From an uncultured Chlorobiaceae bacterium (GTDB lineage Bacteria; Bacteroidota; Chlorobiia; Chlorobiales; Chlorobiaceae): 35,306 nt of DNA. Of the stretch, positions 123 to 17,957 are shown piece after piece; position 1 is the stretch's first letter; every line of letters begins with the position of its first letter. Location of the stretch: assembly GCA_903865705.1 (NCBI GenBank), contig CAIPKT010000110.1, forward strand, positions 1-35,306. Reading direction: 5' to 3'. The translations under genes were made by a program, and so were the position numbers. The notes beneath the pieces were generated by a model that saw nothing but the letters and a program-made list of their open reading frames with translations, had not been told where the DNA came from and ran no database searches.

Positions 123-329
123 ATGGCAGTAGAGAAAACGATTGGTTCATCAAGCCTCGTCGAGGTTATTGACCGTATTCTTGATAAGGGTGTTGTTGTT
201 GATGCATGGGTAAGGGTATCACTTGTCGGTATCGAGCTTCTTGCTATCGAAGCACGTGTCGTAGTTGCCTCTGTAGAGACCTACCTGAAATATGCTGAAG
301 CAATTGGCCTGACTGCAAAAGCAGCGTAA
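123..329 (+). CDS. gvpA: Gas vesicle structural protein GvpA
   Basis: GvpA is the small hydrophobic protein that polymerises into the ribs of the gas vesicle shell in the cytoplasm. The 68-residue product has the typical family core: [15 protein letters not shown], then the strand-turn-strand segment around [17 protein letters not shown], then [20 protein letters not shown]. An in-frame ATG at 12 would add 37 residues with no GvpA similarity and would run through the sigma-54 promoter. The ATG at 123 is preceded by GGAG at 112-115 and gives the expected length. It is the first gene of the array, and its own promoter and the 190-bp gap behind it fit with GvpA being needed in excess over the accessory proteins. 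Confidence 0.95.
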
Positions 330-2427: not shown

Positions 2428-3354
2428 ATGAGTCGCCAAGGAAATGATACTGAGATGAATACAGTGCTTGAGCCGAAGCCCATGCCTAATTTTGTCGAAA
2501 CAGACTATATCAGGGATATAACTAATCGAGGTCTGACATATATGAAAGCTGGATTTCCTGTTCATTTCAGGGGGCCGTCCGGCACGGGAAAGACAACTGT
2601 TGCTTTGCATCTTGCAAGCAAGATAGGTAGGCCTGTTGTCATTATTCATGGCGATTCAGAATACAAGACATCTGATCTTATTGGAAGTGAGCAGGGTTAT
2701 AAATACCGTCGGCTTGACGATAATTTTATTCATTCTGTTCACAAGTATGAAGAAGATATGACAAAGCAGTGGGTCAACAATCGTTTGACTATTGCTATCA
2801 AGAAAGGGTTTACTTTGGTGTATGATGAGTTTACCCGTTCACGTCCTGAGGCTAATAATATTCTTCTTCCTATTCTTCAAGAAAAGATGTTGAGCACATC
2901 TTCATCCAATGAAGAAGAGTATTATATGAAGGTTCATCCTGAATTCAGGGCCATTTTTACTTCGAATCCTGAAGAGTATGCAGGTGTAAACCGTACACAG
3001 GATGCTCTGCGTGACAGAATGGTTACCATGGATCTTGATTATTTCGATTACGAGACCGAACTTATGATCACTCATGCAAAATCAGGAATGTCGCTTGATG
3101 ATGCTGAAAAAATTGTTAAAATAGTCCGCGGGTTGCGTGAATCAGGAAAAACAGAATTTGACCCTACAATACGTGGGTCGATTATGATTGCCAAAACGCT
3201 GAATGTTCTTGGTGCAAGGCCGAACAAGTCAAATGAAATGTTTAAAAAAGTTTGTCAGGATATTTTGACTTCAGAGACGAGCAGGGTAGGATCCAAAACA
3301 AATCAGGAAAGAGTACGTGGTATAGTAAATGAGCTTATTGATTTATACTCATAG
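2428..3354 (+). CDS. gvpN: Gas vesicle AAA+ ATPase GvpN
   Basis: GvpN is a MoxR-like AAA+ ATPase needed for gas vesicles to grow to normal size. The 308-residue protein has a Walker A motif GPSGTGKTT at residues 49-57, a Walker B LVYDEF at about 130-135, a sensor-type segment FRAIFTSNPEEYAGV and an arginine-finger region (DALRDRMVTMDLDYFD). These match the family in order and length. The start is uncertain: the ATG at 2428 has no clear ribosome binding site, while an in-frame ATG at 2455 has AAGGAA about 11 bases upstream and would give 299 residues. It follows a stem-loop and precedes the accessory genes, as in other gvp clusters. Confidence 0.93.
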   Translation: MSRQGNDTEMNTVLEPKPMPNFVETDYIRDITNRGLTYMKAGFPVHFRGPSGTGKTTVALHLASKIGRPVVIIHGDSEYKTSDLIGSEQGYKYRRLDDNFIHSVHKYEEDMTKQWVNNRLTIAIKKGFTLVYDEFTRSRPEANNILLPILQEKMLSTSSSNEEEYYMKVHPEFRAIFTSNPEEYAGVNRTQDALRDRMVTMDLDYFDYETELMITHAKSGMSLDDAEKIVKIVRGLRESGKTEFDPTIRGSIMIAKTLNVLGARPNKSNEMFKKVCQDILTSETSRVGSKTNQERVRGIVNELIDLYS

Positions 3355-3383: not shown

Positions 3384-3689
3384 ATGCCGATCAAGACTAC
3401 TAAAAGGGGAGTCAATCATATTAAAACTCTCCATACCGTTACAAAAGCATCTGCAAAGAAAAACGACACAGCTGATTTTCTTGAATTGTACATGCTTGAG
3501 AAGGAGAAGCAGCGGTTAATGAGTGAGGAGTCAAAAATATTGTTCAGACTTGATTATGTTCAAAATCGATTGAGAATTATACAGAATATTTATGAGCATA
3601 GTTCATATTTGCTTCATCATCAAAATAGTAACAATTACCGCGAGGTAAACTCAAATCCTGGATTTACAACTATCCAAATAGAGTATTAA
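3384..3689 (+). CDS. Small basic helical gas vesicle protein (GvpV-like, tentative)
   Basis: The 101-residue product has a basic N-terminus (MPIKTTKRGVNHIKTLHTV) followed by a helical core (DFLELYMLEKEKQRLMSEE) and a tail with no recognisable motif. The layout of a basic arm followed by a L-Y-x-L-x-x-E-K-x-R-L helix resembles the small GvpV proteins of cyanobacterial gvp clusters, from memory only. Its biochemical role is unknown. It lies 29 bp after gvpN and 12 bp before gvpJ, so it is almost certainly co-transcribed. There is no signal peptide or membrane segment. Confidence 0.7.
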   Translation: MPIKTTKRGVNHIKTLHTVTKASAKKNDTADFLELYMLEKEKQRLMSEESKILFRLDYVQNRLRIIQNIYEHSSYLLHHQNSNNYREVNSNPGFTTIQIEY

Positions 3690-3701: not shown

Positions 3702-4001
3702 ATGTCAGAATTAAAACATGCGGTTAATGCGACAGGCCTTGCGGATATACTTGAAAGGGTTCTGGATAAGGGCATTGTTATTGCAGGTGATATCAAAATA
3801 CAGATTGCCGATATAGATTTGCTGACAATTAAAATACGACTTTTAATTGCATCAGTTGATAAGGCAATGGAGATGGGCATAAACTGGTGGCAGGAAGACC
3901 CTTATCTTTCTACGAAAGCAAAAGACAAAGAACATAAGCTGTTACAGGATGAGTTACAGCAGCGTATAGAGAAATTGGAAGCTATAACCAGGATAACGTA
4001 A
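3702..4001 (+). CDS. gvpJ: Gas vesicle protein GvpJ (GvpA family minor component)
   Basis: This 99-residue protein shares the GvpA-family core (LADILERVLDKGIVIAGDIK, then IDLLTIKIRLLIASVDKA) and carries a family-typical extension with MGINWWQEDPYLS followed by a charged helical C-terminus. The WW-x-x-DP segment and the extension identify GvpJ rather than GvpA or GvpS; the same segment is known from Bacillus megaterium GvpJ. GvpJ is thought to be a minor shell or nucleation component, with the conical ends suggested as its site. It is followed after 11 bp by gvpH. Confidence 0.9.
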   Translation: MSELKHAVNATGLADILERVLDKGIVIAGDIKIQIADIDLLTIKIRLLIASVDKAMEMGINWWQEDPYLSTKAKDKEHKLLQDELQQRIEKLEAITRIT

Positions 4002-4012
4002 GGGGATTCGCG

Positions 4013-4531
4013 ATGAAAAACGAAAAAGAGGGTAGTGGAAAGGGTGAATCAGAACTTGATTTTCTGGGGTTGGGAGGTCTTTTTAAAGGAATCGAGAAGT
4101 TAGTGGATTTAGCAGGTAAACTCGAGCAAACTGGAGCTGTCAGCCGTGAAGGAGAGCTCAATTTTGACCAGCTTAAAAAAGGAATGAAAGGCGTTTATGG
4201 GTTTACCATCAAATCAGCGGTGGGTGGTGCTCCAAAAGTTGAGACTTTTGGGAATATAGTCAAAACGGCTCAAGGCCCAAAGGTCAATGAGGAGCGTGAA
4301 CCTATAACGGATGTTTTTGATGAGAGCGATGAGGTGGTCGTCATTGCAGAAATGCCAGGTATTGAAGAGGCGGATATATTTATTGATCTTAAGGATGATA
4401 TTCTTGAAATTTCAACGAAAAACCTGAAAAAAAGTTATCGTAAAGAGCTTTTGTTGCCGATCAAGCCACAGAAAAACTCACTTCAGCAAAAGTATACAAA
4501 CGGTATCCTTGAAATAAGAATTAAAAAATAA
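4013..4531 (+). CDS. gvpH: Gas vesicle Hsp20-like chaperone GvpH
   Basis: The 172-residue product has a glycine-rich N-terminal half (about 1-90, with FLGLGGLFKGIEKLVDLAG) and a C-terminal alpha-crystallin/Hsp20-like domain (about 95-172), including DVFDESDEVVVIAEMPGIEE, a DILEIST strand and the closing NGILEIRIKK strand. This is the layout of GvpH, a small-heat-shock-like accessory protein that interacts with other Gvp proteins in haloarchaea. An AGGGGA ribosome binding site lies just upstream of the ATG. It probably holds aggregation-prone gas vesicle subunits. The next gene starts 5 bp downstream. Confidence 0.88.
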   Translation: MKNEKEGSGKGESELDFLGLGGLFKGIEKLVDLAGKLEQTGAVSREGELNFDQLKKGMKGVYGFTIKSAVGGAPKVETFGNIVKTAQGPKVNEEREPITDVFDESDEVVVIAEMPGIEEADIFIDLKDDILEISTKNLKKSYRKELLLPIKPQKNSLQQKYTNGILEIRIKK

Positions 4532-4536
4532 CCACA

Positions 4537-5502
4537 ATGCCGCTGACAGGTTTGGAGAGCAAAGACCTTAAGATGATTATATTTGGCGGTAAAGGTGGTG
4601 TTGGTAAGACCAGTTGTGCTGTAGCATGTGCTATCGGGTTGGCTGAACATTTTAAAACTCTGGTAATTTCAACAGACCCGGCGCACTCGATTTCTGACAG
4701 TCTCGAACAAGAGATAGGGTTCAGACTCCAACCGGTTCATAACGTTGTAAACCTCACCGCTATAGAGATTTCTGCAGACAAAGCATTTCAAGAGTTTAAA
4801 AAAGAGCATGAAGCTGAACTTATCAAACTTTTTGATACTTCTACCAGTTTTGATGAAGAAGATATTCAGCAAATGATGAGTCTCACAATTCCTGGAATTG
4901 ATGAGGTTATGAGCTTCAAGACTATTATTGATCTTATTGAAGAGAATAATTATGAAAAATACGTTGTAGATACAGCTCCTACTGGGCACGCGTTACGCCT
5001 TTTGTCTTCACCGATACTATTGGATGAGTGGATTAAGATGGCTGCGAAGATGAGGTGGAAGTATCGTTATATGATAGAGTCTTTTTCTGGTGAGTACAAG
5101 GAAGATGAGGCAGATGTTATGCTGCTTAATCTTAAAAAGACCGTCAAGCGTATTGCAGCTCTTCTGAGCAATAGAGAGAAATGCGAATTTATTCCTGTCT
5201 GTATTCCTGAGGATATGGCTATTATGGAAACAGACCGGCTTTTAAAGGAGCTCAAGAGCTTTAAGATTGCGTCAAGCCAGATGATTCTCAATAATGTCAT
5301 GGTGTCTGACGAATCGGGATTTTGCAGGCAAAGAAAGGCTGCTCAAGAAAAGTATGTTAAAAAGGTACATGATCTCTTTAAAGATTTGCAGGTTGTGATT
5401 GTCCCTCTTTTTCCTGATGAAATCAAGGGGGTAAGTGCGTTAAAAAAGTTACAAGAGGTGCTCTTTGATGAAAATAAAGCTCTAAACAGAGATGAAAAAT
5501 GA
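4537..5502 (+). CDS. ArsA/Get3 (TRC40)-family ATPase in gas vesicle cluster
   Basis: This 321-residue soluble ATPase has the deviant Walker A motif GGKGGVGKT (residues 17-25), the switch I motif STDPAHS (45-51) and the switch II motif [12 protein letters not shown]. It also has the Get3-type A-loop region [16 protein letters not shown], so it belongs to the ArsA/Get3 family. Get3 shields tail-anchored membrane proteins and ArsA energises arsenite efflux. No arsenic gene is nearby, so a chaperone role for hydrophobic GvpA-type subunits is the better inference. The Get3 zinc-binding CxxC is not intact: the corresponding region reads [13 protein letters not shown] with one cysteine. The stop overlaps the next ATG by four bases (ATGA), indicating translational coupling to the CDC48-like ATPase. 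Confidence 0.88.
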
Positions 5503-7646
5503 GTCTTGATGAGTTGCTACTAAAGGTAAAAGAGGCCATTGTCAAGGATGTCGGACGTGCAATAGCAAGGATTGATCCTCATGATATGGCTCGAGCGGGT
5601 CTTGCTTCCGGCGATATTGTGATGATAGAAGGTAAACGTTCCACTCCGGTCAAAATTTTGCCTTCCTACCCTGATGACAGAGGTAAGGGGATTATACAGA
5701 TTGATGGCATTACGAGAGAAAATGCCAATGTCGGTATTGATGAAAAAGTTAGCATAAATACTGTTGCTTTCCGTCAAGCCACTAAAATCAAGCTTAAACC
5801 CGTAACAAAGTCAAGTTCTCAAATTAAAGCTGATGATGCGAAATACATCGGTTCGCTTATCAATGGCTTGCCGGTGACAAAAGGCGATAAAATCAAGGCA
5901 ACTCTTTTTGGATCAGGCTCAATATATTATACCATTACATCAACCACACCCGATGGAGTTGTTCTTATTCATCCGGATACCAACATTCAGCTTGAGTTAA
6001 CAAAACATAATGAAGTAAAATCAAATAAGGTTACTTATGAAGATATAGGGGGGCTTGGCAATCAGGTTCAACGCATACGTGAGATGATTGAACTACCCCT
6101 GAAATATCCTGAAATATTTGAAAGACTTGGAGTTGAACCTCCAAAAGGAGTCTTTCTCTATGGCCCTCCCGGTACAGGGAAAACACTTATTGTTAGAGCA
6201 GTGGCCCAGGAAACCGATGCGTATTTTATAAATATTTCCGGCCCTGAAATTATGGGCAAGTATTACGGTGAAAGTGAAGCAAGGGTGCGTAATATTTTTG
6301 CTGAGGCTCAGTCACATGCTCCGTCAATTATTTTTATTGATGAGATTGATGCAATAGCTCCCAAACGGGAGGATATGGGGGGTGAAAAGCAGGTGGAGAA
6401 AAGGGTAGTTGCACAGCTTTTGTCTTTGATGGATGGATTGGAGTCAAGGGGTAAAGTTATTGTCATTGGTGCTACCAATATACCTAATTCCATTGATCCA
6501 GCCCTGAGAAGACCTGGTCGTTTTGATCGTGAAATATCAATTTCTATTCCCGACAAAAAAGGGAGGCTCGAAATTCTTCACATTCATACGAGGGGCATTC
6601 CATTATCAGAAGATGTGGACATGTCAAAAATTGCTGATATTACCCATGGTTTTGTAGGAGCCGATCTTGAAGCCCTTGCCAGGGAAGCAGCCATGACCGC
6701 ATTAAGGAAAATTCTTCCACAGATTAATTTTGAATTATCTGAGATTCCCTACGAGCTTTTGATGCAATTGGAAGTTACGATGGATAATTTTTTAGATGCG
6801 ATGAAGGAGGTTGAACCATCTGCCATTCGTGAAGTTTTTGTAGAGGTACCAGATGTCAAGTGGGAGGATGTTGGTGGTCTTGATGATATTAAGCAGGCGT
6901 TAAAAGAGAGTGTTGAGTGGCCTGTTAAATATGCAGAACTTTTTAAAAAAACAGATACAAAGCCTCCTAAAGGAATTATATTGTATGGAAAGCCTGGTAC
7001 CGGAAAGACATACCTTGCCAAGGCGCTTGCCAGTGAAAGCGGTGTAAACTTTATTTCTGTCAAGGGACCACAACTTCTCAGCCGTTTTATTGGTGAATCA
7101 GAAAAAGGGGTACGTGAACTTTTCAGACTTGCGAAACAATCAGCGCCGACTATTCTTTTTCTTGATGAAATAGACAGTTTGACGCCACGCAGAAGAAATG
7201 ATGGAACAGAATCCGGAGTTATCGAAAGAGTTATCAGTCAGTTTCTTACTGAAATGGATGGTATTGAAGAGTTAAAAGGAGTCACTGTGCTTGCCGCAAC
7301 AAATCGGATCGATATAATTGATCCGGCATTATTACGTTCTGGAAGATTTGATCTTATGTTTGAAGTACCACTGCCAGAATTAATGACCAGAGAAAAAATA
7401 TTTGAAATACATACAAAAAACATGCCACTTGAAAAGGGTGTGAGCTTGACTGCTTTGGCTGGAAAAACAGAGCGTATGACTGGGGCAGATATACAGTTTA
7501 TCTGTCAAAAGGCTAAAATGTGCGCCATTCGTGAACTAATTGATAAAAAAGAGGCCTCAGAGAATGCTGAGATTCTTGTCAGGGAAAAACACTTTGAAGA
7601 GGCAATACAGGTTGTTATCAATCAAAATGAAAATATTCTAAATTAG
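5499..7646 (+). CDS. CDC48/VAT-family double AAA+ ATPase
   Basis: This 715-residue protein has a CDC48-type N-terminal double-psi barrel and second N subdomain (about 1-175) and two AAA+ modules. D1 has Walker [10 protein letters not shown], Walker B IIFIDEID and a pore motif KYYGESE like that of archaeal VAT. D2 has Walker [10 protein letters not shown] (Lys for the usual Pro), Walker B ILFLDEID and RFIGESE. Both have an R-x-GRFD segment with arginine-finger candidates. CDC48/p97 proteins unfold or extract proteins from complexes. Here it is translationally coupled to the ArsA/Get3-like ATPase and sits inside the gvp array, so remodelling of Gvp proteins is likely but unproven. CDC48 is commoner in archaea and eukaryotes; gvp clusters are one of its bacterial niches. 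Confidence 0.92.
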
Positions 7647-7652
7647 CAAGTA

Positions 7653-8672
7653 ATGAATAGGCAAGGTATTTATATATATGGATTTGTTCCCAGCCATTGT
7701 TTTGAAGCCATAAAAAGTCTTTTGGTAGAATCAGGTATTTATGCAATTGAATATGGGGATGTTTCTGCAGTAGTATCAGATACAAGGGATGAAAAACTTG
7801 AATATTTGGATAAAGAGGCTCTTGCGCATATCCTTGTTTCCCATCAGCAAACTATCGAAAAGATTATGACCGGCGGATGCTCTGAAATAGTTCCGATGCA
7901 ACTTGGTACTATAGTCAGTTCCGGCAACGATGTTATTAAAATTTTGAAAAATGGATCTAATATTTTAAGGGAAACTTTTCAGATTATCGACAATGTTGAA
8001 GAATATGATTTGGTGGCGGTATGGAACAACTTCCCTGAACTTATTAAAACGATATCTGAGACGTCACAAATCAGGCTTATGAAGGATGAAATTGCAAAAA
8101 AAAATGTTTATGATCAGGCTGACAGCATTACAATCGGTAAGTTAATAAAACAAAAGATTGATGAAAAAAACAATAAAGTTAATCTTGATATTGTCCATTC
8201 ATTAATGCCTTATTGCCTTGATGCCAAAAAGCATGAAACGATGAATGATGAAATGCCGGTAAATTCTGCTTTTCTTGTCAAAAAAGAAAACAGAAATGCT
8301 TTCATGGAAATGATCGACCAACTTGACATCAAATATGCGGATCAGTTGAACTTCAAGGTTGTTGGTCCATTGCCTTGTTACAGTTTTTATACTATTGAAT
8401 GTAAAATACTGAATAGGGATGAGATAGAAAAAGCAAAAGGGGTGCTTGGGATTGAAGCTTATAAATCAGATGCCGATCTCAAGAAAGCTTATCGCCTCAA
8501 AGCAGGTCTGACACATCCCGATAAGAACAACGAAATTGCCGAGGACAATAATGACAAATTTATTGAAATCAATAATGCATATAAAATAATGCTCGAATAT
8601 TCATGCATTATAAAACAGTCGGCTGATAATATTTCTCAAGAACCTTTATTCCTGGTCAAAATTAAGAAATAA
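7653..8672 (+). CDS. GvpF/GvpL-family protein fused to a DnaJ J-domain
   Basis: Residues 1-252 form a GvpF/GvpL protein: an N-terminal strand IYIYGFV, ISHQQ-type helix (LVSHQQTIEKIM), the PMQLGTI segment, and the closing VVGPLPCYSFYTIEC strand. Residues about 256-320 form a J-domain with VLGIEAYKSDADLKKAYRLK, the diagnostic HPD tripeptide at 288-290 and an FIEINNAYKIM helix. GvpF/L proteins bind GvpA and assist assembly; J-domains stimulate DnaK ATPase. The fusion therefore suggests direct recruitment of DnaK to nascent vesicles. It is longer (339 residues) than the other four paralogues here (249-265). It follows the CDC48-like gene by 6 bp and is separated from the next paralogue by one base. 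Confidence 0.92.
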   Translation: MNRQGIYIYGFVPSHCFEAIKSLLVESGIYAIEYGDVSAVVSDTRDEKLEYLDKEALAHILVSHQQTIEKIMTGGCSEIVPMQLGTIVSSGNDVIKILKNGSNILRETFQIIDNVEEYDLVAVWNNFPELIKTISETSQIRLMKDEIAKKNVYDQADSITIGKLIKQKIDEKNNKVNLDIVHSLMPYCLDAKKHETMNDEMPVNSAFLVKKENRNAFMEMIDQLDIKYADQLNFKVVGPLPCYSFYTIECKILNRDEIEKAKGVLGIEAYKSDADLKKAYRLKAGLTHPDKNNEIAEDNNDKFIEINNAYKIMLEYSCIIKQSADNISQEPLFLVKIKK

Positions 8673-8673
8673 T

Positions 8674-9447
8674 ATGCTAAAAGATGGTAAATATGTTTAT
8701 TGTATAATTGCTACCAGTTATGAATGCAATTTTGGGCCTATAGGAATCGGGGGTCGGGGCGATTTGGTAAGTACTATAGGATTCCAGGGATTAAGCATGG
8801 TGGTCAGTGATCATCCACTCAATCATTTTGTGTTAAATCCAGAAAATATTCTCGCCCATCAAAGAGTTATTGAAGCGGTAATGAGCCAATTTGACAGCGT
8901 TATACCGGTCAGATTCGGTACCGTAGCGGCTACTCCTGATGAAATCAGAAATCTTCTTGACAGGCGGTACAGTGAGTTGTCGGACCTTCTTCAGCGTTTT
9001 GAAAACAAGGTTGAATATAATCTGAAGGCTTCATGGCGAAGCATGGGTATGATTTATAATGAGATTGATAAGGAAAATGCAGGCTTAAAAAAGCTGAGAA
9101 GTAAAATTGAGCAATTGACTGATGAAGAAAAAAGAAAAATCCTGATTGTAGAGGCTGGTCATTTAATTGAAGATGCGTTACTGAAAAAGAAAGAATATGA
9201 AGCAGAGGAAATTGTTTCTGCTTTTCGCAAGACAATCGTCGCCAGCAAGCATAATAAAACAACCGGCGAAGCCATGTTTATGAATACAGCTTTTTTGCTC
9301 ACCAAGGGCCGGGAAGTAGAGTTTGATAATATCCTGACTGATCTTGGCGAAAGATTGAAAGAAAGAAGTGATTTCTTTTATACTGGTCCCTTACCCATAT
9401 TTAACTTTATAGACTTAAGAATCCTGCCTGAAAAATGGGAGCTTTAA
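8674..9447 (+). CDS. Gas vesicle protein GvpF/GvpL family (paralogue 2)
   Basis: The 257-residue protein shows the whole GvpF/L pattern: KYVYCIIATS start strand, FGPIGIGG loop, ILAHQRVIEAVM helix, VIPVRFGTV core strand, a charged helical middle, and FYTGPLPIFNFIDLRI at the end. Family members are cytoplasmic accessory proteins that contact GvpA and nucleate shells. It is very similar in layout to the next paralogue (FGPIGIG shared at the same position), suggesting tandem duplication. It could be called gvpF or gvpL; the sequence alone does not decide. Confidence 0.92.
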   Translation: MLKDGKYVYCIIATSYECNFGPIGIGGRGDLVSTIGFQGLSMVVSDHPLNHFVLNPENILAHQRVIEAVMSQFDSVIPVRFGTVAATPDEIRNLLDRRYSELSDLLQRFENKVEYNLKASWRSMGMIYNEIDKENAGLKKLRSKIEQLTDEEKRKILIVEAGHLIEDALLKKKEYEAEEIVSAFRKTIVASKHNKTTGEAMFMNTAFLLTKGREVEFDNILTDLGERLKERSDFFYTGPLPIFNFIDLRILPEKWEL

Positions 9448-9470: not shown

Positions 9471-10247
9471 ATGGATATCGGTGAGGTAAAAGAAGGGAGA
9501 TATATTTACGGAATAATAAGGAATTCCGAAAAAATTGATTTCGGCCCTATCGGAATAGGCAGTCGAAATGATCATGTATACGGAGTGACTTATAAAGATA
9601 TATGTGCTGTGGTCAGTTCATCGCCTGACATTCAATATCAAGCAAGGCGTGCAAATATGATTGCTCATCAGAAAGTGCTTGAAGAGGTTATGAAGAACTT
9701 TAATGTTCTTCCGGTCAGATTTTCAACGATATCGCCCCATGACAACGATGATGCAATAATCCGTATTCTTACTGAAGATTATAAAAGATTTGATGATTTG
9801 CTCGATAAAATGAAAGGAAAGAAAGAGTTGGGACTAAAAGTTGTTGCGGAAGAATCAAAGATTTATGAAAACATTATACAGAAATATGACAGTATAAGAT
9901 CACTTAGAGATAAACTGATTAACCAGCCTTCCGATAAAATTCACTATCAGCGTGTAAAGATAGGAGAAATGGTTGCTGAAGCGCTCAAGAAAGAGATTGA
10001 GAACTATAAGACACAGATTCTTGATACCTTGAGACCTATAGCTGAAGATGTCAAGATTACTGATAACTATGGCAATCTTATGATACTTAATGCAGCTTTC
10101 CTTATTAAGGAGGTCAAGGAGCATGCGTTTGATCAGGCGGTGAATGAACTTGATCAAAAATATGGGGATGTTATGACGTTCAAATATGTAGGAACGCTAC
10201 CTCCTTATAATTTTGTTAACCTTTCGATCAATACCAAAGGGGGTTAA
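9471..10247 (+). CDS. Gas vesicle protein GvpF/GvpL family (paralogue 3)
   Basis: This 258-residue protein has the GvpF/L signatures GRYIYGIIRNS, FGPIGIGSR, MIAHQKVLEEVM, VLPVRFSTI and the terminal strand YVGTLPPYNFVNLSI. It resembles the preceding gene in both motifs and spacing. The stop at 10245-10247 is one base before the GTG start of gvpG, and the gvpG ribosome binding site lies inside the 3' end of this gene, so the two are probably translationally coupled. The GvpF-GvpG adjacency hints that this copy is the gvpF equivalent. Confidence 0.92.
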   Translation: MDIGEVKEGRYIYGIIRNSEKIDFGPIGIGSRNDHVYGVTYKDICAVVSSSPDIQYQARRANMIAHQKVLEEVMKNFNVLPVRFSTISPHDNDDAIIRILTEDYKRFDDLLDKMKGKKELGLKVVAEESKIYENIIQKYDSIRSLRDKLINQPSDKIHYQRVKIGEMVAEALKKEIENYKTQILDTLRPIAEDVKITDNYGNLMILNAAFLIKEVKEHAFDQAVNELDQKYGDVMTFKYVGTLPPYNFVNLSINTKGG

Positions 10248-10248
10248 A

Positions 10249-10482
10249 GTGTTTATTATAGATGACATATTATTTGCCCCATTAAATGGGCTTATATTTG
10301 TGGCAAATAAAATTAATGATGTTGTAGAGAAGGAAACATCAGATGAAGGTACAGTTAAAGAACGTCTTATGGCCCTTCAGCTTAGGTTTGAGCTGGATGA
10401 AATTGATGAGGACGAATACGACAGGCAAGAGGATGAACTTCTGCAAAAGCTCGAAAAAATTAGATTAGACAAACAAAACTAA
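10249..10482 (+). CDS. gvpG: Gas vesicle protein GvpG
   Basis: GvpG is a small accessory protein found next to GvpF. The 77-residue product begins (V)FIIDDILFAPLNGLIFVANK and continues into an acidic helical region (LMALQLRFELDEIDEDEYDR) and a Lys/Glu-rich end, as in the family. An in-frame ATG at 10213 would overlap the previous gene and add residues foreign to GvpG. The GTG at 10249 has the strong ribosome binding site AAAGGGGGT at 10237-10245 and gives the family start, so it is the preferred start. Confidence 0.9.
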   Translation: MFIIDDILFAPLNGLIFVANKINDVVEKETSDEGTVKERLMALQLRFELDEIDEDEYDRQEDELLQKLEKIRLDKQN

Positions 10483-10558: not shown

Positions 10559-10831
10559 ATGAGCAAAATAATTAGTGTAAGAAACGCCGTTATTAAATTT
10601 CTTAAAGAAAACATCAAGACAACTGAAGTAACTGTAATTAGGATAGAAAAATCAGGAGATACATGGAAAACTGTTTCCGAGGTATATGAAGATGATTCGT
10701 TTTTAAAATCAATGAATCTTCCTCCTAAAAAAATAAGATTATTTTACTCAGTAGTAGTTGATTCTGAATTGGAGGTATTGTCATTTACAAGGCTTACGAC
10801 ATATGATGATTCGGAATCTGAAAATAATTGA
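10559..10831 (+). CDS. gvpO: Gas vesicle protein GvpO (probable)
   Basis: This 90-residue protein has the GvpO order of elements: an N-terminal helix (VRNAVIKFLKENIK), then WKTVSEVYED, a proline turn, and LFYSVVVDSELEVLSFTRLTTYDD, which corresponds to the Y-x-V-x-x-D-x-x-G-E-L-x-x-Y-x-R strand pair of the family. GvpO is required for vesicle formation in haloarchaea, possibly in expression control. The ATG is preceded by CCAGGAG at 10547-10553. A 76-bp gap precedes it, the longest in this half of the array, but I see no sigma-54 site there. Confidence 0.8.
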   Translation: MSKIISVRNAVIKFLKENIKTTEVTVIRIEKSGDTWKTVSEVYEDDSFLKSMNLPPKKIRLFYSVVVDSELEVLSFTRLTTYDDSESENN

Positions 10832-10846
10832 AGGTTTAATGTTGCT

Positions 10847-11644
10847 ATGAATGCAGATCAGAATAAACTTATTTACTTATATTGTTTTACAAAAAAAGTC
10901 CCTTCGATTCTAAATCCCGAATTTCAGCAGGATTTAGTGTTTATGGAGATTGAAGGGCTTTACGCGGCAGTAAAGTATGTATCAGAAAGTGAATATTCTG
11001 AAGAAAATATTAAAAAAAATATTTCTGATGTAGAATGGCTGGATGCAAATGTAAGGGAACATCTCCGGTCAATTACTATCATCATGCAGACGGAGACTGT
11101 AATCCCTTTTAATTTTGGCACGATCTACAAGTCTGAAAAAAGTTTAAGAGAGTTTGCAAGTCAATACGCTTATGATTTTAGAGAAAGTTTTCTTTATCTT
11201 GAAAACCGGGAGGAGTGGTCGGTAAAAGTGTTTTGTGACAGAAAAATGATCATCGAAAATATAGGCACTTTTAGTCCAAATATTTCAGATATTGATCAGC
11301 AAATCAAGAGTAGTTCTCCTGGTAAAGCTTACATACTTGGAAAGAAAAAAAAAGAAATTATCGAGACTGAAATAAAAGTTGTTTATAATAATTTATCAAA
11401 AAAAATCTTTACTGCTTTAAATGAATTATGCGATGAATATCGATTCAATATCATTCTTTCAAACGAGTTAACTGAAAAGAATGAAGATATGATTCTTAAT
11501 GTTGCGTTTTTCATTAAAAAAGAAAATATTGACCATTTTATACAATGTTCTGATCAGTTGATGCATGAGTATTCAGGTGTCGGTATGATTATGGATATTA
11601 CAGGGCCTTGGCCTCCGTACACGTTTTTAAAAATATCGCATTAA
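10847..11644 (+). CDS. Gas vesicle protein GvpF/GvpL family (paralogue 4)
   Basis: The 265-residue product has a GvpF/L layout but is more divergent than paralogues 1-3. It starts KLIYLYCFTKKVP, has VREHLRSITIIMQ in place of the usual AHQ helix, VIPFNFGTIYKS for the core strand, and ends DITGPWPPYTFLKIS. It is very AT-rich (runs of A in many lysine codons). It ends one base before the gvpS start. The GPWPPY ending is shared with paralogue 5, so these two form a second subgroup flanking gvpS. Confidence 0.88.
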   Translation: MNADQNKLIYLYCFTKKVPSILNPEFQQDLVFMEIEGLYAAVKYVSESEYSEENIKKNISDVEWLDANVREHLRSITIIMQTETVIPFNFGTIYKSEKSLREFASQYAYDFRESFLYLENREEWSVKVFCDRKMIIENIGTFSPNISDIDQQIKSSSPGKAYILGKKKKEIIETEIKVVYNNLSKKIFTALNELCDEYRFNIILSNELTEKNEDMILNVAFFIKKENIDHFIQCSDQLMHEYSGVGMIMDITGPWPPYTFLKISH

Positions 11645-11645
11645 T

Positions 11646-11837
11646 ATGCAAGACGACCTTTATGATATTAATAAAGAAATCACTATTCTTGATGTTCTTG
11701 ATCGTGTTTTAACAAAAGGGGTTGTTATAACCGGTGATATTGTGATTTCAGTAGCTGATATAGATCTTGTTTATCTGGGGCTTAGGTTATTGCTGAGTTC
11801 AGTAGAGACAATGGAAAAAATGAAAGCAGTTAATTAA
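11646..11837 (+). CDS. gvpS: Gas vesicle protein GvpS (GvpA family)
   Basis: This 63-residue protein is the third member of the GvpA family in the window. It has ILDVLDRVLTKGVVITGDIV followed by VADIDLVYLGLRLLLSSVETM. The LVYL-x-LR-x-L-x-SSVET segment is characteristic of GvpS as in Bacillus megaterium rather than GvpA or GvpJ, although GvpM is an alternative name for close relatives. It is probably a minor shell or nucleation component. It starts one base after the preceding gene, between two GvpF/L paralogues. Confidence 0.85.
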   Translation: MQDDLYDINKEITILDVLDRVLTKGVVITGDIVISVADIDLVYLGLRLLLSSVETMEKMKAVN

Positions 11838-11865: not shown

Positions 11866-12615
11866 ATGCCGATAATTATGTATGCCATTCTTGACACAAG
11901 AGTAAACAATGAGGATATATCTCATTTTATTGAACACCTTTCTTTTGAGTCAAATATCCAGTTTGAATTAATTTCCTCCCATGAGTTAACTGCTGTAGTT
12001 TCAATCCAGACGGAGAGCAAATCAGCAATCTCACAAGCGGATGTGTTAACGTATGCTGGTATTGTTGATATAATAGCTCAAAAACACTCAATCCTTCCCA
12101 TGAGGTATGGCTCTGTTGTTTCTTCTTATGCAGACATAACAAATTTGCTGGACAAAAACGCAGAATCTTTTCATCGAGTCTTGAAAAAGATTTCGAATAA
12201 AGAGGAATATTCATTACGCCTCTTGTTTTCGCATCAGCATCAGGATGCTGATTTTAATAAAGAGAGTTCTGATGCAACTCAATCAGTTCCGGATATCCTG
12301 CAGGGTAAAAGTGAAAATAAGCAATACTTATTAAAAAAATACCAGAAGCATATCATTGAAGAACAGCGTATCCAATATATTGAGAACATTCAATCCAAGG
12401 TTATTATAGATCTTAAAAAGATAACTGAATATATTGAGTTTAATAAAAAGGTTACGCCAGCATTTATTATAGATGCAGTTATTTTGATTGAAAAGTCAGC
12501 AAAAGGCGAACTTCTTGCTTTTGTGGGTCAACTGAAATCCAAGTATCCAGAACATAATGTCATTTTGACTGGCCCATGGCCACCATATAATTTTGCTCAA
12601 ATTAAGCTTGAATAG
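11866..12615 (+). CDS. Gas vesicle protein GvpF/GvpL family (paralogue 5)
   Basis: The 249-residue product is the most divergent GvpF/L copy but retains the key elements: IIMYAILDTR start strand, VLTYAGIVDIIAQKHS helix, ILPMRYGSVVSS core strand, and LTGPWPPYNFAQIKLE at the end. A longer polar insertion with many Gln, Lys and Ser lies between residues about 120 and 170. It is followed after 2 bp by gvpK. The GPWPPY end groups it with paralogue 4. Confidence 0.88.
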   Translation: MPIIMYAILDTRVNNEDISHFIEHLSFESNIQFELISSHELTAVVSIQTESKSAISQADVLTYAGIVDIIAQKHSILPMRYGSVVSSYADITNLLDKNAESFHRVLKKISNKEEYSLRLLFSHQHQDADFNKESSDATQSVPDILQGKSENKQYLLKKYQKHIIEEQRIQYIENIQSKVIIDLKKITEYIEFNKKVTPAFIIDAVILIEKSAKGELLAFVGQLKSKYPEHNVILTGPWPPYNFAQIKLE

Positions 12616-12617
12616 AG

Positions 12618-12962
12618 ATGCAAGAGGATAAAATATTGTTTTATGCAGGTTCTGCCAATGAGATTATAGAGGAACTTGAAAAAATAAAGCCAGGCGATCA
12701 AGGCAGAATAAACGCCACACCAGAAAATGTTGATTCTGGTCTGGCAAAACTTGTATTGACCCTTATTGAACTGATTCGCAAGTTAATGGAAAAACAGGCA
12801 ATGCGCAGAATTGACGGAGATTCATTGACTGAAGAACAAATTGAAAACCTCGGAGAAACCCTCATGAAACTTGAAAACAAGATGGATGAGCTAAAAAAAA
12901 TATTTAATCTCACGGATAAAGACCTTAATCTTAATCTTGGCCCTTTAGGTGACTTATTATAA
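12618..12962 (+). CDS. gvpK: Gas vesicle protein GvpK
   Basis: GvpK is a small accessory protein essential for vesicle formation. The 114-residue product has the family centre RINATPENVDSGLAKLVLTL, then IELIRKLMEKQAMRRIDG and SLTEEQIENLGETLMKLENK, ending in a DLNLNLGPLGDLL tail typical of the family. It is the last + strand gene of the array. The 139 bp to the convergent regulator gene hold only a small hairpin (12986-13002, no T-run), so no clear terminator is visible. Confidence 0.93.
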   Translation: MQEDKILFYAGSANEIIEELEKIKPGDQGRINATPENVDSGLAKLVLTLIELIRKLMEKQAMRRIDGDSLTEEQIENLGETLMKLENKMDELKKIFNLTDKDLNLNLGPLGDLL

Positions 12963-13101: not shown

Positions 13102-14505
13102 TTAGCGTTCTATTTCATTCTTTGTAATATCAATTTTGTATTTTTTCATTCTTCTTATGAGCGTATATCGACTGATTCCAAGAATTTCTGCTGTTATTAC
13201 CTGATTATATTCACACTCCGCAAGTGTTTTTCTTATAATATCGGCCTCTTCTGTTTTGTTATCTACGTCTGTTGTATTTCTTTTTTCCAATCGTTTTATT
13301 ATTGTTGGTAAGGGAAAATCAGCTATTTCCAATGATTCCCCTGTCGAAAGTATAATAGCTCTTTCCGCAAGGTTTCTCAGCTCTCTTATGTTTCCAGGAA
13401 AACTGTACTTTTCAAGTGCCCCGAACACGTCATCCGCAATATATTCAATTGGCTTATTGATTTTTTCAGAAAACTCTTCAACAAAATCAATCAAGAGAGG
13501 TCCAATATCTTCAGTTCTTTCCCTCAAAGGCGGGATGTGTATATGCAGAGTGTTTAATCGGTGAAGCAAATCAAGTCTGAACTTTTTTTCTTCAACCATT
13601 TTTTCCAGATCACAGTTAGTAGCTGATATTAATCTGAATTTAGTTTGTATTTGCTTTGTATCACCCACTCTTGTAATTGATCTTTCTTCTATGGCTCGCA
13701 AAATCTTTGACTGGAGATTAACTGGCATATCAGCAATTTCATCAAGAAAAAGCGTCCCCTCATTGCATACCTCAAATAATCCTTTTTTATCAGATATTGC
13801 TCCTGTAAATGATCCTTTTTTATGCCCAAAAAATTCACTTTCAATCAGTGATTCGCTGATAGCGCTGCAATTAATGGCTCCAAAATAATTCTCTTTCTGC
13901 TGGCTCATGTAATGAATAAGTCTAGCAAAAATCTCTTTTCCTGTTCCGCTTTCACCTGTTATAAGAACGTTGATATCAGGATATTGTGAGGCTTTCTTAG
14001 CTAATTCATATATCTCTATTATTTGTTTGCTTTTTCCGATACAATGACGACCGATTTTCGATTGTATATCTGAATTGATTAACGAATACTTTTCTTCAGC
14101 TTTTTCGAGTTTTCGCTGCATTTGAAGGTATTTTTGCGTTCGCTCTATAGCGATTTGTATATCAATATACCTCATGGGTTTGCGCAGATAGTCAAATGCA
14201 CCTAACCTGATGGAATCAATAACCGTATCCATATCGCCATGTGCCGAAACCATGATAACTTCTATATCAGGATAAAGTTCCTTAACTTTCTTTAATATAT
14301 CCAGGCCATTTGTTCCGGGTAGGCGTACATCAAGAATCAAAAGATCAATTTTGTTTTTGCTCATTATATCATAACCATCTTCAGGTGTATTTGCTGAAAA
14401 TGGAATAAATCCTGAGTTTTTCAGGTAATCACTGATTTCATTAGTAAAATCAATTTCGTCATCCAGCGTCAGAACTTTTAACTTTATTTTATTTTTAGTG
14501 TCCAT
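13102..14505 (-). CDS. NtrC-family sigma-54-dependent response regulator
   Basis: This 467-residue regulator has a receiver domain (about 10-125) with phosphoacceptor Asp59 in ILDVRLPG and conserved Lys109 (LRKP). An AAA+ sigma-54 interaction domain (about 150-375) follows, with Walker A GESGTGKE at 184-191 and Walker B TLFLDEIADMP, and then a Fis-type helix-turn-helix (about 420-455, ILGISRYTLIRRMKKY). The sigma-54-binding loop reads GSFTGA (231-236) rather than the canonical GAFTGA. Its start overlaps the stop of the upstream histidine kinase gene by one base, so the two form a cognate pair. It converges on the gvp array, whose first gene has a sigma-54 promoter; control of gas vesicle synthesis is a reasonable inference. 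Confidence 0.95.
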   Translation of the reverse strand: MDTKNKIKLKVLTLDDEIDFTNEISDYLKNSGFIPFSANTPEDGYDIMSKNKIDLLILDVRLPGTNGLDILKKVKELYPDIEVIMVSAHGDMDTVIDSIRLGAFDYLRKPMRYIDIQIAIERTQKYLQMQRKLEKAEEKYSLINSDIQSKIGRHCIGKSKQIIEIYELAKKASQYPDINVLITGESGTGKEIFARLIHYMSQQKENYFGAINCSAISESLIESEFFGHKKGSFTGAISDKKGLFEVCNEGTLFLDEIADMPVNLQSKILRAIEERSITRVGDTKQIQTKFRLISATNCDLEKMVEEKKFRLDLLHRLNTLHIHIPPLRERTEDIGPLLIDFVEEFSEKINKPIEYIADDVFGALEKYSFPGNIRELRNLAERAIILSTGESLEIADFPLPTIIKRLEKRNTTDVDNKTEEADIIRKTLAECEYNQVITAEILGISRYTLIRRMKKYKIDITKNEIER

Positions 14506-17500
14506 TAGTTAGTTATTTTCGGTAGATTAATAATAACACGCGTACCTTTCATAGGATTGCTTTCGATTTTAATATCACCATTCATTTCCTTGATGATGCC
14601 GTAACTGATCGAAAGTCCCAGCCCAGTGCCTTTCCCTGACTTTTTGGTTGTGTAAAATGGGTGCATGATATATTCAATACTATCCTTATTCACACCGATA
14701 CCGTTATCCTCCACAGTTACATTTACTGAATTATCGTTATAAAATGATTTTATAACAATTTTCATCTCGAAATCTTCTTTACTAGTTTGCATTTTCTCTT
14801 CAATTGCATCAACAGAATTCTTGATCAAATTGAGGATAACCTGCTCGAATTTATAAATATTACCAACTACTGAAATTCCCTCCTTTTCGGGCATAAAATC
14901 AAGGGTTATAAATTTGTGATTGCATTGTTCAGAGAACATCAAAAGTGTATTTCGGATACTTTTGTTAATATTTACCGTTGATGATATATAGTTGTCATTA
15001 GTGCTTGAGAAGGATCGTATATTATCAATAATGGTTTGAACTCTTAATATATTTTCAAAAATCTTTTCAGTATTGACTTTAATGTTATTCTTGTATTCAG
15101 AATTATCTTTAGAAACATCCATCAGTATCTTGTCAACAATCAATCCTATATTGTTAATGGGTTGATAGATTTCATGTGCGATACCTGATGCCATTTCTCC
15201 AAGACTGATCAGCCTTTTCGCATGAAATAATTCGCTTTCAATCACCTTTCTTTTGGAAATATCACGAATAATCATCATATATGATAAAGGTGCGCCGTTG
15301 TAGTCCTGGATCAATGCGGCGCTTATTTCAGCGGAATAAACAACATTATTTTTCTTTTTAAGTAAGATTTCTTTGTTTTGTATCAAGCCTTCTCGAAGTG
15401 TAACTTCATAGATCTCATTAATAATTTTAATGTTATCCGGATAGACAATCGCTGAAAATGGCATCCCTATAACATCAGCTTTGTTTTGAGCACCAAATAT
15501 TTCCAGACCAATATCAGAGATACTCGCAATAATGCCATCAAGATTTGTTGTTATAATACTATCTGGCGATGCTGCAATAAGCGTTTGGTACTGTTTGTCC
15601 AATTGTCTTCTTGTTTTTTCTGCATCATTGATTTTATTTGAGCTTGTAATAAATACGGCTAATGAATAAATAGATTCGTTTTTATCATAAACAGGATAAG
15701 CCGAGATTTGATAGATATGGATATCTTTCTGTTCATTTCCTTTTTCATTCGTACAGAACGTATCCTTGAAATGAGCAGGTTCTTTTGTGTCAATAACCTG
15801 TTCAAACTTTACTTTTCTTTCCTGTTGTAATACAGCAGGAAAAAGTGAATGGAAATTCTGTCCAATCACGCTTGATGATTCTCTGGCGTACATATCTTTG
15901 AACTCCATATTAGCGTCAAGTATGGTGCCTTCTCTGGTCAAGCAACAGAATGGATCTATTGATGAATTCAGTAGATTGGTAATGTTATTTGTATTGATAA
16001 CATGGGTGAACTCATAATTTTTGTATTCGGTAATATCAATACTTACGCCCATGTAGCGTTTCACAAGTCCGTCAGCATTTTTGACAGGAAAACCATGAGT
16101 CATTATCTGTCGTGCAGAGCCATTATTGTCGTGGACATGGTAGGCCACTTTAAAATAATCGTCTTTTGCAATTGCATTCAATATTGTTTCTTCTGTTTGC
16201 ACCCTCTCACTTGCCACAATAGTTTCCATCCATGCATGAAAGGAGGGTTCCTTGATATGCAAGTCAATCCCGTAAAGCATATGCAGTTCATCAGAATGGA
16301 GCATCATTCCTGTTTCGAGATCCCACTCCCAGTTTTCGGTAGTAATGGTTTTCATGGGAGTCAATACCAGAACAAAGTACCCTTTCTGGTGGCTATAGGC
16401 TGTAATATCCAACCATTTGTTCAATGTATTTATATAAAGGTCAAACCGTTCGGAAACACCGCTCAGCGCAACCCGTCCTAATTTTTCAAGCAACTCTGGA
16501 TTTGATTCGCAGATATCCGGCCTGATTTTTGTTATTCTTTGCCCCTCAATGGTATCCAATCCCGTTAATTTTTTGAAATTAAGATTGACTACTTTAGGAA
16601 TAAAATCTACTGGACGATTTTCGTTAAAAATCATCCGGCAATAGGCAAAACCGTTTAACTGATTATTGAAGAGGTTACGGTAACGCACCCTTTGATCGAG
16701 AAGTTCATTTTCAGTAAGACCAAGCGTTGTAACCTCAGTGACTAAAATCAGCAGATTTGATATTTTGCCATCCTTATCCGGAATCGGGTAGATGGTATGA
16801 CGGTTTATCAGCCCATTCGATTCATTTTCATAAATGATCCGCGCGCCTGTGCAGAGTACCTCCTCCACTTTATTTTTTTGCTGAATAGCAGCTTCAGGAG
16901 AGGCCAAACTGTAAATATTGGTGCCAACGGTAATTTCCGGAAAGTCCTGGAATCGTAAATTGAAAGCCGTGTTGACACGCAGGATGTTGCCTTCCCTATT
17001 CAGAAGAAGAAGCGGTTCAAGGTAAGCGTTGAAGAGTGTATCGATCGACTTTTCATCCTCATTTTTATCAAGTATTGCCATAAGCAACTCATCAACTGAA
17101 TGCGTTTCAGACATTTTGTGAAGGCGAAGCTGAAATGCCGTCTGAGATTCATAACGCTTGCGCACGGTTATGTCATGAATAATGGCATAGAGGAGATTTC
17201 TGCTTCCAATCTTTATCTTCTGGCTGAAGACCTCCACATCCCGCAAAGAACCATCTGACCTGCGATGGCGAAAGACAAACTGGTTTTGTTTAGATACAAG
17301 CACATTACTTAGATTCTTTTTTATCTCTTCAACTGAGATAGGATTAATTTGCTTGAGATTCATCTGCCTGAGCTCATCAATAGACCATCCATAAAAGTCC
17401 GCTGCCGCACGATTGGCGTCAATAATATTACCGGTTTCAGGATCGATGACCAGCATGGTGGCGGAATGCTTTTCAAAGAAATTCCTGAAGCGATCCTCGC

Positions 17501-17957
17501 TTTCCTTGAGTGCCTTTTCAGCATTCTTGCGCTCGGTGATGTCATCAAATATCGAGACGAAGTACCCCTTTTTCGGGCTGTATATCGAAATGTCAAACCA
17601 TTTGTTCAATGGCTTGAAATACATTTCAAACTGGTCAGAAATTCCTGTGCAAGCTACTTTTGCATGTTTCTCAATAAAGTCAGGATACAAGGTTTTAATG
17701 TCGGGGAAAACCTCAGTCAATTTTCGCCCGACAACATTGGTCAAGCCTGTCAGTCTTTCATAACCTGAGTTGACCTCTTCGTGGATAAAATCGACAGGAA
17801 CATCTCCTTCGAAAACCATGCGGCAGTATGCGTAACCGTTCCGCATGTAGTCAATAATGTTACGATGATTCGTCTTGCTGTCGATGATCGCATCCTTTGT
17901 CAGAGTAAGATCTGAGAGGGGATTATCTGTATTGCTGTCGCAATAAACTATGGGCAT
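14505..17957 (-). CDS. Soluble multi-PAS sensor histidine kinase
   Basis: This 1150-residue kinase has a series of about six or seven PAS domains (about 30-910) followed by HisKA with the phosphoacceptor His928 in GIAHEIYQPINN. A HATPase_c domain follows, with N-box NLIKNSVDAIEE, G1 box VEDNGIGV and G2 GKGTGLGLS. No signal peptide or membrane helix is evident, so it should sense a cytoplasmic signal such as redox, light or a ligand. Two PAS units are internal duplicates: NGYAYCRMVF...PVDFI near residue 40 and NGFAYCRMIF...PVDFI near residue 440, each followed by an LNKW-D-I...KGYFV block. It is coupled to the NtrC-type regulator by a one-base overlap. GC content is clearly higher in the 5' part (around 17,000-17,900) than in the 3' part (14,500-16,000). 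Confidence 0.93.
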   Translation of the reverse strand: MPIVYCDSNTDNPLSDLTLTKDAIIDSKTNHRNIIDYMRNGYAYCRMVFEGDVPVDFIHEEVNSGYERLTGLTNVVGRKLTEVFPDIKTLYPDFIEKHAKVACTGISDQFEMYFKPLNKWFDISIYSPKKGYFVSIFDDITERKNAEKALKESEDRFRNFFEKHSATMLVIDPETGNIIDANRAAADFYGWSIDELRQMNLKQINPISVEEIKKNLSNVLVSKQNQFVFRHRRSDGSLRDVEVFSQKIKIGSRNLLYAIIHDITVRKRYESQTAFQLRLHKMSETHSVDELLMAILDKNEDEKSIDTLFNAYLEPLLLLNREGNILRVNTAFNLRFQDFPEITVGTNIYSLASPEAAIQQKNKVEEVLCTGARIIYENESNGLINRHTIYPIPDKDGKISNLLILVTEVTTLGLTENELLDQRVRYRNLFNNQLNGFAYCRMIFNENRPVDFIPKVVNLNFKKLTGLDTIEGQRITKIRPDICESNPELLEKLGRVALSGVSERFDLYINTLNKWLDITAYSHQKGYFVLVLTPMKTITTENWEWDLETGMMLHSDELHMLYGIDLHIKEPSFHAWMETIVASERVQTEETILNAIAKDDYFKVAYHVHDNNGSARQIMTHGFPVKNADGLVKRYMGVSIDITEYKNYEFTHVINTNNITNLLNSSIDPFCCLTREGTILDANMEFKDMYARESSSVIGQNFHSLFPAVLQQERKVKFEQVIDTKEPAHFKDTFCTNEKGNEQKDIHIYQISAYPVYDKNESIYSLAVFITSSNKINDAEKTRRQLDKQYQTLIAASPDSIITTNLDGIIASISDIGLEIFGAQNKADVIGMPFSAIVYPDNIKIINEIYEVTLREGLIQNKEILLKKKNNVVYSAEISAALIQDYNGAPLSYMMIIRDISKRKVIESELFHAKRLISLGEMASGIAHEIYQPINNIGLIVDKILMDVSKDNSEYKNNIKVNTEKIFENILRVQTIIDNIRSFSSTNDNYISSTVNINKSIRNTLLMFSEQCNHKFITLDFMPEKEGISVVGNIYKFEQVILNLIKNSVDAIEEKMQTSKEDFEMKIVIKSFYNDNSVNVTVEDNGIGVNKDSIEYIMHPFYTTKKSGKGTGLGLSISYGIIKEMNGDIKIESNPMKGTRVIINLPKITN

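Follow-up and report, generated by a model that had tools for sequence, protein, structure and literature searches.

Here, we present an analysis of a gas-vesicle (gvp) gene cluster in a 35,306-nucleotide stretch of DNA from an uncultured Chlorobiaceae bacterium (hereafter, the window). The cluster extends from gvpA to gvpK, also holds gvpN, gvpG and gvpJ, and encodes five GvpF/L proteins, of which one carries a J-domain (GvpF-J). Its assigned genes and the parts of the fusion gene are the following:

123..329, + strand: gvpA, the major shell protein and likely client (translation; ATG at 123)
2428..3354, + strand: gvpN-type AAA ATPase (AAA_5; matches annotated GvpN in L038, L117, L118, L120 and L121)
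3702..4001, + strand: gvpJ/gvpA-type minor shell protein (PF00741; GvpJ models)
4013..4531, + strand: Hsp20 small heat-shock protein (PF00011; NF041800 just under its cut-off)
4537..5502, + strand: ArsA-type ATPase (PF02374, 263.8 bits)
5499..7646, + strand: CDC48/VAT-type AAA+ ATPase, 715 aa (Pfam CDC48_N, CDC48_2 and two AAA domains; synteny)
7653..8672, + strand: GvpF-J fusion gene, one complete ORF of 339 aa
7665..8390, + strand: GvpL_GvpF domain of GvpF-J, residues 5-246 (PF06386; fold match to 6l5d/4qsg)
8415..8618, + strand: J-domain of GvpF-J, residues 255-322 in the model and 264-313 for the Pfam core (PF00226; model helices)
8514..8522, + strand: HPD tripeptide, residues 288-290 (sequence; kept in 63 of 64 proteins)
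8646..8663, + strand: C-terminal strand with 'LVKIK'-like motif, residues 332-337 (model, alignment, model of a distant homologue)
8674..9447, + strand: unfused GvpF/L paralogue 2 (PF06386)
9471..10247, + strand: unfused GvpF/L paralogue 3 (PF06386)
10213..10482, + strand: gvpG, listed with a TTG start; the true start may be later (phmmer, annotated GvpG in L117-L121)
10559..10831, + strand: GvpO-like protein (PF05800, 20.0 bits, under the cut-off of 25)
10847..11644, + strand: unfused GvpF/L paralogue 4, on the GvpL side of the tree (profile match, tree)
11646..11837, + strand: small GvpA/J-type protein, 63 aa (sequence comparison)
11866..12615, + strand: unfused GvpF/L paralogue 5 (groups in the tree with the second GvpF/L of the Nostoc cluster)
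12618..12962, + strand: gvpK (PF05121, 120.8 bits)

Three further proteins of the cluster (496-1110, 1137-2306 and 3384-3689) have no convincing family, and their order recurs in other phyla; one of them is an apolipoprotein-like coiled coil that is possibly GvpC-like. Directly after gvpK, and convergent with the gvp genes, lie genes for a sigma-54-dependent response regulator and a 1150-aa multi-PAS histidine kinase (13102-17957), which are candidate regulators of the gvp cluster.

GvpF-J joins two domains in one protein. Pfam places GvpL_GvpF (PF06386) at residues 5-246 (167.4 bits against a cut-off of 23.6, E 7.7e-49, profile positions 1-244 of 245) and DnaJ (PF00226) at residues 264-313 (43.9 bits against a gathering cut-off of 27.8, E 2.5e-11); no Pfam match beyond these two was found, the G/F region, zinc domain and C-terminal DnaJ domain being absent. 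Based on phmmer searches of the PDB, the N-terminal part matches the GvpF structures 6l5d and 4qsg, while residues ~261-317 match 34 J-domain chains (best E 4e-6). In DnaJ, we take R22, Y25, K26 and F47 to be DnaK-contacting residues; in the window's GvpF-J, the DnaK-contact residues K277, Y280, R281 and F303 are present, and helix II is basic. A preliminary description of the locus had the coordinates, the complete GvpF/L module and the HPD tripeptide at residues 288-290 right, and its claim that GvpF/L is joined to a real J-domain is borne out by Pfam (the profile search that it had proposed), by the PDB sequence matches and by an AlphaFold2 model. The J-domain of GvpF-J is a genuine DnaJ-type domain, and the Pfam, PDB and structure matches rule out a chance occurrence of HPD.

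The AlphaFold2 model, built from a 64-sequence alignment, has a mean pLDDT of 92.5 and a pTM of 0.84. Three helices (255-265, 273-287 and 296-322) surround the HPD loop, which joins the last two; nothing in the model corresponds to helix IV of DnaJ. Using Foldseek, we matched the model to GvpF structures (TM, by target length, 0.80 for 6l5d and 0.75 for 4qsg) and its J-domain to the solved domain 2m6y (2.4 A over 58 columns). The model also has a strand after the J-domain (332-337) of which the preliminary description made no mention; the motif 'LVKIK' or similar is common to many relatives in the alignment at this strand, and we suggest that the strand may pair with the GvpF sheet and so pin the J-domain. 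The model of an Anaerolineae homologue with only 23% identity (pLDDT 93.8, pTM 0.87) has a similar GvpF fold, J-domain and final strand, and its J-domain matches solved J-domains, including the DnaK-bound 5nro.

GvpF-J is not a feature of a single locus, as it might have appeared from the window; rather, the survey of other gvp clusters proposed in the preliminary description uncovered a widespread subfamily with the same fusion in many bacterial phyla, usually with an adjoining CDC48-type gene. We found 63 homologues with the GvpF plus J-domain architecture (22-84% identity to the window protein); all 64 representative proteins match GvpL_GvpF and 63 match Pfam DnaJ (E<=0.01). A scan of genome contigs, for which we used motifs from the GvpF part and none from the J-domain, returned 78 loci. 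Their record names include Bacteroidetes, Ignavibacteriae, Spirochaetales, Nitrospirae, Omnitrophota, Kiritimatiellaeota, Planctomycetes, Acidobacteria, Actinomycetota, Chloroflexi, Deltaproteobacteria, Alphaproteobacteria and others, and homologues also span Chlorobiaceae and Pseudomonadota; because the labels of metagenome-assembled genomes can be wrong, the number of phyla is approximate. These multi-phylum loci rule out that the fusion is confined to Chlorobi. All sampled Chlorobiaceae genomes with gvpF/L have GvpF-J, whether whole, truncated at the edge of a contig or reduced to a relic. Viral spread is not indicated, as a scan of viral contigs gave no relative.

Several individual records deserve mention. 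The window's gvp sequence recurs, with a 100% identical fusion protein, on an 11-kb contig binned as Bacteroidia (L048), which is probably misbinned. In an Acidobacteria record (L082:3148-4905), a 585-aa ORF consists of a GvpF-J fusion and a second GvpF/L domain. In Chlorobium phaeovibrioides BrKhr17, for which gas vesicles have been reported, the fusion gene is divided between two contig ends (L110 and L115), and on L110 its frame passes, where the contig ends, into sequence that resembles a histidine kinase.

Could gvpF have been joined to an unrelated dnaJ-like gene by an artefact of assembly or gene prediction? Many assemblies, from many phyla, carry the fusion as a single ORF, among them a complete plasmid of Octadecabacter arcticus and the genome of the cultured Dictyobacter aurantiacus (Chloroflexi). 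Because this single-ORF layout recurs across many independent assemblies, frameshift and misassembly are excluded, and the chance of an artefact of any such kind is negligible.

In a tree of 247 GvpF/L proteins based on the GvpF part only, all 69 fusions form one clade (support 99); likewise, in a likelihood tree of the GvpF part of 95 proteins with outside references, the fusion clade has an SH-aLRT of 99 and the fused state requires one label change. Several independent fusions are therefore unsupported. The fusion clade sides with GvpF of H. salinarum and Nostoc, away from GvpL of H. salinarum, with weak support for the deepest split (42). Because our search patterns favoured the fusion clade, unfused members of this clade may exist elsewhere. 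Given one clade on trees of the GvpF part, the simplest history is one ancient fusion that later spread both vertically and horizontally, and the fusions apparently go back to a single ancestral event.

The HPD tripeptide is intact in 63 of the 64 fusion proteins (H in 63, P in all 64, D in 63). At the other positions, numbered as in DnaJ, R22 is replaced by or kept as a basic residue in 60/64 fusions, Y25 is tyrosine in 53/64 and F47 is phenylalanine in 51/64; K26 is basic in only 41/64, and such variability at key positions counts against a co-chaperone role. Within Chlorobiaceae, dN of the J-domain is far below dS and somewhat above dN of the GvpF part. HPD is missing in only two copies, both outside an intact gvp cluster. 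One of them (L062) lies in a decayed cluster, in which the coiled-coil gene is split and no gvpN, gvpK or CDC48 gene was found; the other (one gene of G025, seen as L022 and L129) is an orphan gene whose J-domain is truncated, and no other gvp gene was found nearby. This pattern is what would be expected if HPD were needed only during gas-vesicle production, although two cases are few.

These observations also bear on the idea that the J-domain has lost its activity toward DnaK and serves for structure or docking, e.g., as a stiff extension of GvpF for binding CDC48 or a different Gvp. The high pTM of both models (0.84 and 0.87), which suggests that the J-domain may be firmly packed on GvpF, with a C-terminal strand, and its faster evolution relative to the GvpF part speak for such a module; however, the exposed HPD loop, which is dispensable for the J-domain fold as such, persists in 63 of the 64 proteins, which span many phyla, and is missing only where the gvp cluster is not intact. 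We regard a DnaK-inactive module as improbable.

Among the fusion loci, each cluster has one GvpF-J alongside unfused GvpF/L paralogues. A CDC48-type AAA+ gene, mostly of ~715 aa, lies directly upstream of the fusion in 59 of 76 loci and adjoins it in most phyla; in the window, it ends 6 bases before the fusion gene. Hsp20 and ArsA-type genes are usual in fusion-bearing clusters. Neither the fusion nor a CDC48 gene is present in the Halobacterium, Kitasatospora and Spartinivicinus clusters or in the compact gvp clusters of Chlorobiales, and the clusters of Nostoc and Methylocella contain a CDC48-like gene but no fusion. The link between the fusion and CDC48 is thus strong but not absolute. The papers searched contained no description of a role for a CDC48-type ATPase in gas vesicles. 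The window's genome encodes one J-domain protein in addition to GvpF-J, a DnaJ-like protein of 401 aa (on C123). DnaK was found in all 27 genomes tested (on C104 in the window's genome); its presence says little because DnaK is nearly universal.

Hsp20, DnaK/DnaJ and AAA+ unfoldases generally act together in disaggregation. With a CDC48-type gene next to most of the fusions and Hsp20 in the same cluster, GvpF-J could serve in quality control by marking GvpA that is misfolded or in excess, or vesicles that have collapsed, for DnaK and the CDC48-type unfoldase, leading to disaggregation or turnover. However, GvpF-J is encoded in one co-directional array with assembly genes, and it has been suggested that GvpF works at an early stage, as a chaperone of newly made GvpA (PMC11445434), and we consider this role unlikely.

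Rather, we suggest that GvpF-J is likely a dedicated class C (Hsp40-type) J-domain co-chaperone of gas-vesicle assembly. In haloarchaea, GvpF is the sole accessory Gvp found to bind GvpA (PMC7688916); a GvpF that binds GvpA and carries a working J-domain would most simply be read as a client-specific co-chaperone. According to this model, a GvpF paralogue gained a J-domain and closing strand at its C-terminus by fusion, and its GvpF part would be the client-binding module for hydrophobic GvpA-type subunits; the J-domain would pack against GvpF and present HPD to the general DnaK of the cell; HPD would trigger ATP hydrolysis by DnaK, which would thereby be loaded on the client; and the DnaK-bound client would stay in solution up to its entry into the growing shell. 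Handling of the client is probably also the task of the co-encoded CDC48-type unfoldase, Hsp20 and ArsA-type ATPase. The engagement of DnaK, GvpA as the client, the role in assembly instead of turnover, and the cooperation with CDC48 are inferred here. The preliminary description had proposed that DnaK is tethered at the site of shell assembly. The fusion on which this proposal was built stands, and the tethering itself has indirect indications: the near-complete retention of HPD across many phyla, its loss only outside intact gvp clusters, and a probable place on the GvpF branch, which includes the GvpA-binding haloarchaeal member (PMC7688916).

The fusion is not generally required, because many gvp clusters are without GvpF-J (haloarchaea, Nostoc, Kitasatospora, Methylocella, Spartinivicinus and the compact clusters of Chlorobiales). 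Moreover, because each cluster has unfused paralogues on the GvpF side, GvpA may bind these, and the client of GvpF-J may be another Gvp. More tentatively, we speculate that in many bacterial gvp clusters GvpF-J could be part of an ancient organelle-specific chaperone line, in which a GvpF-based Hsp40 would recruit DnaK to GvpA and act in sequence with a dedicated CDC48-type unfoldase, Hsp20 and ArsA-type ATPase, so that hydrophobic subunits are fed into the shell; well-studied systems such as Halobacterium would do without such a line.

The occurrence of the fusion across many bacterial phyla argues that it is probably a dedicated Hsp70 co-chaperone of gas-vesicle assembly. GvpF would then be wired directly to the Hsp70 system, in a connection kept across many phyla, which bears on how hydrophobic GvpA is kept soluble and delivered to the shell; a single point mutation in HPD makes this question of delivery testable. 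GvpF-J may also matter for gas vesicles engineered as ultrasound reporters in foreign hosts, in which many natural gvp clusters give no detectable vesicles (PMC10344784).

Our search of the mainly open-access literature for GvpF or gas vesicles together with DnaJ, J-domain or Hsp40 gave no relevant paper, and the papers searched on the gas-vesicle genes of Octadecabacter and Chlorobiaceae mention no J-domain; the architecture may already be catalogued in a domain database. Like GvpF of cyanobacteria and haloarchaea (PF06386; 4qsg, 6l5d), GvpF-J has the GvpF fold, is encoded in a gvp cluster and probably sides with GvpF in the tree; however, the compared proteins stop after the GvpF fold, while the fusion clade adds the J-domain and closing strand. 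In 2010, ArsA and Hsp20 were noted in gvp clusters, including that of a green sulphur bacterium (PMC2963123). According to the available text of that report, these clusters, from Chlorobi and others, likewise have an ArsA-type ATPase, Hsp20, GvpN, GvpK and several GvpL/F, whereas the same text does not mention a J-domain or a CDC48-type gene. Similarly, Serratia 39006 has several GvpF paralogues in its cluster (GvpF1-F3), which are called essential there and for which no J-domain is reported (PMC4982088), a likeness drawn from the description only. With class C J-domain proteins (PF00226), GvpF-J shares HPD, most DnaK-contacting residues and a specific client-binding domain; by contrast with DnaJ, it has GvpF as its client module in place of the G/F, zinc and C-terminal DnaJ domains. 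Both of its domains are well known; what is new is their old, conserved union.
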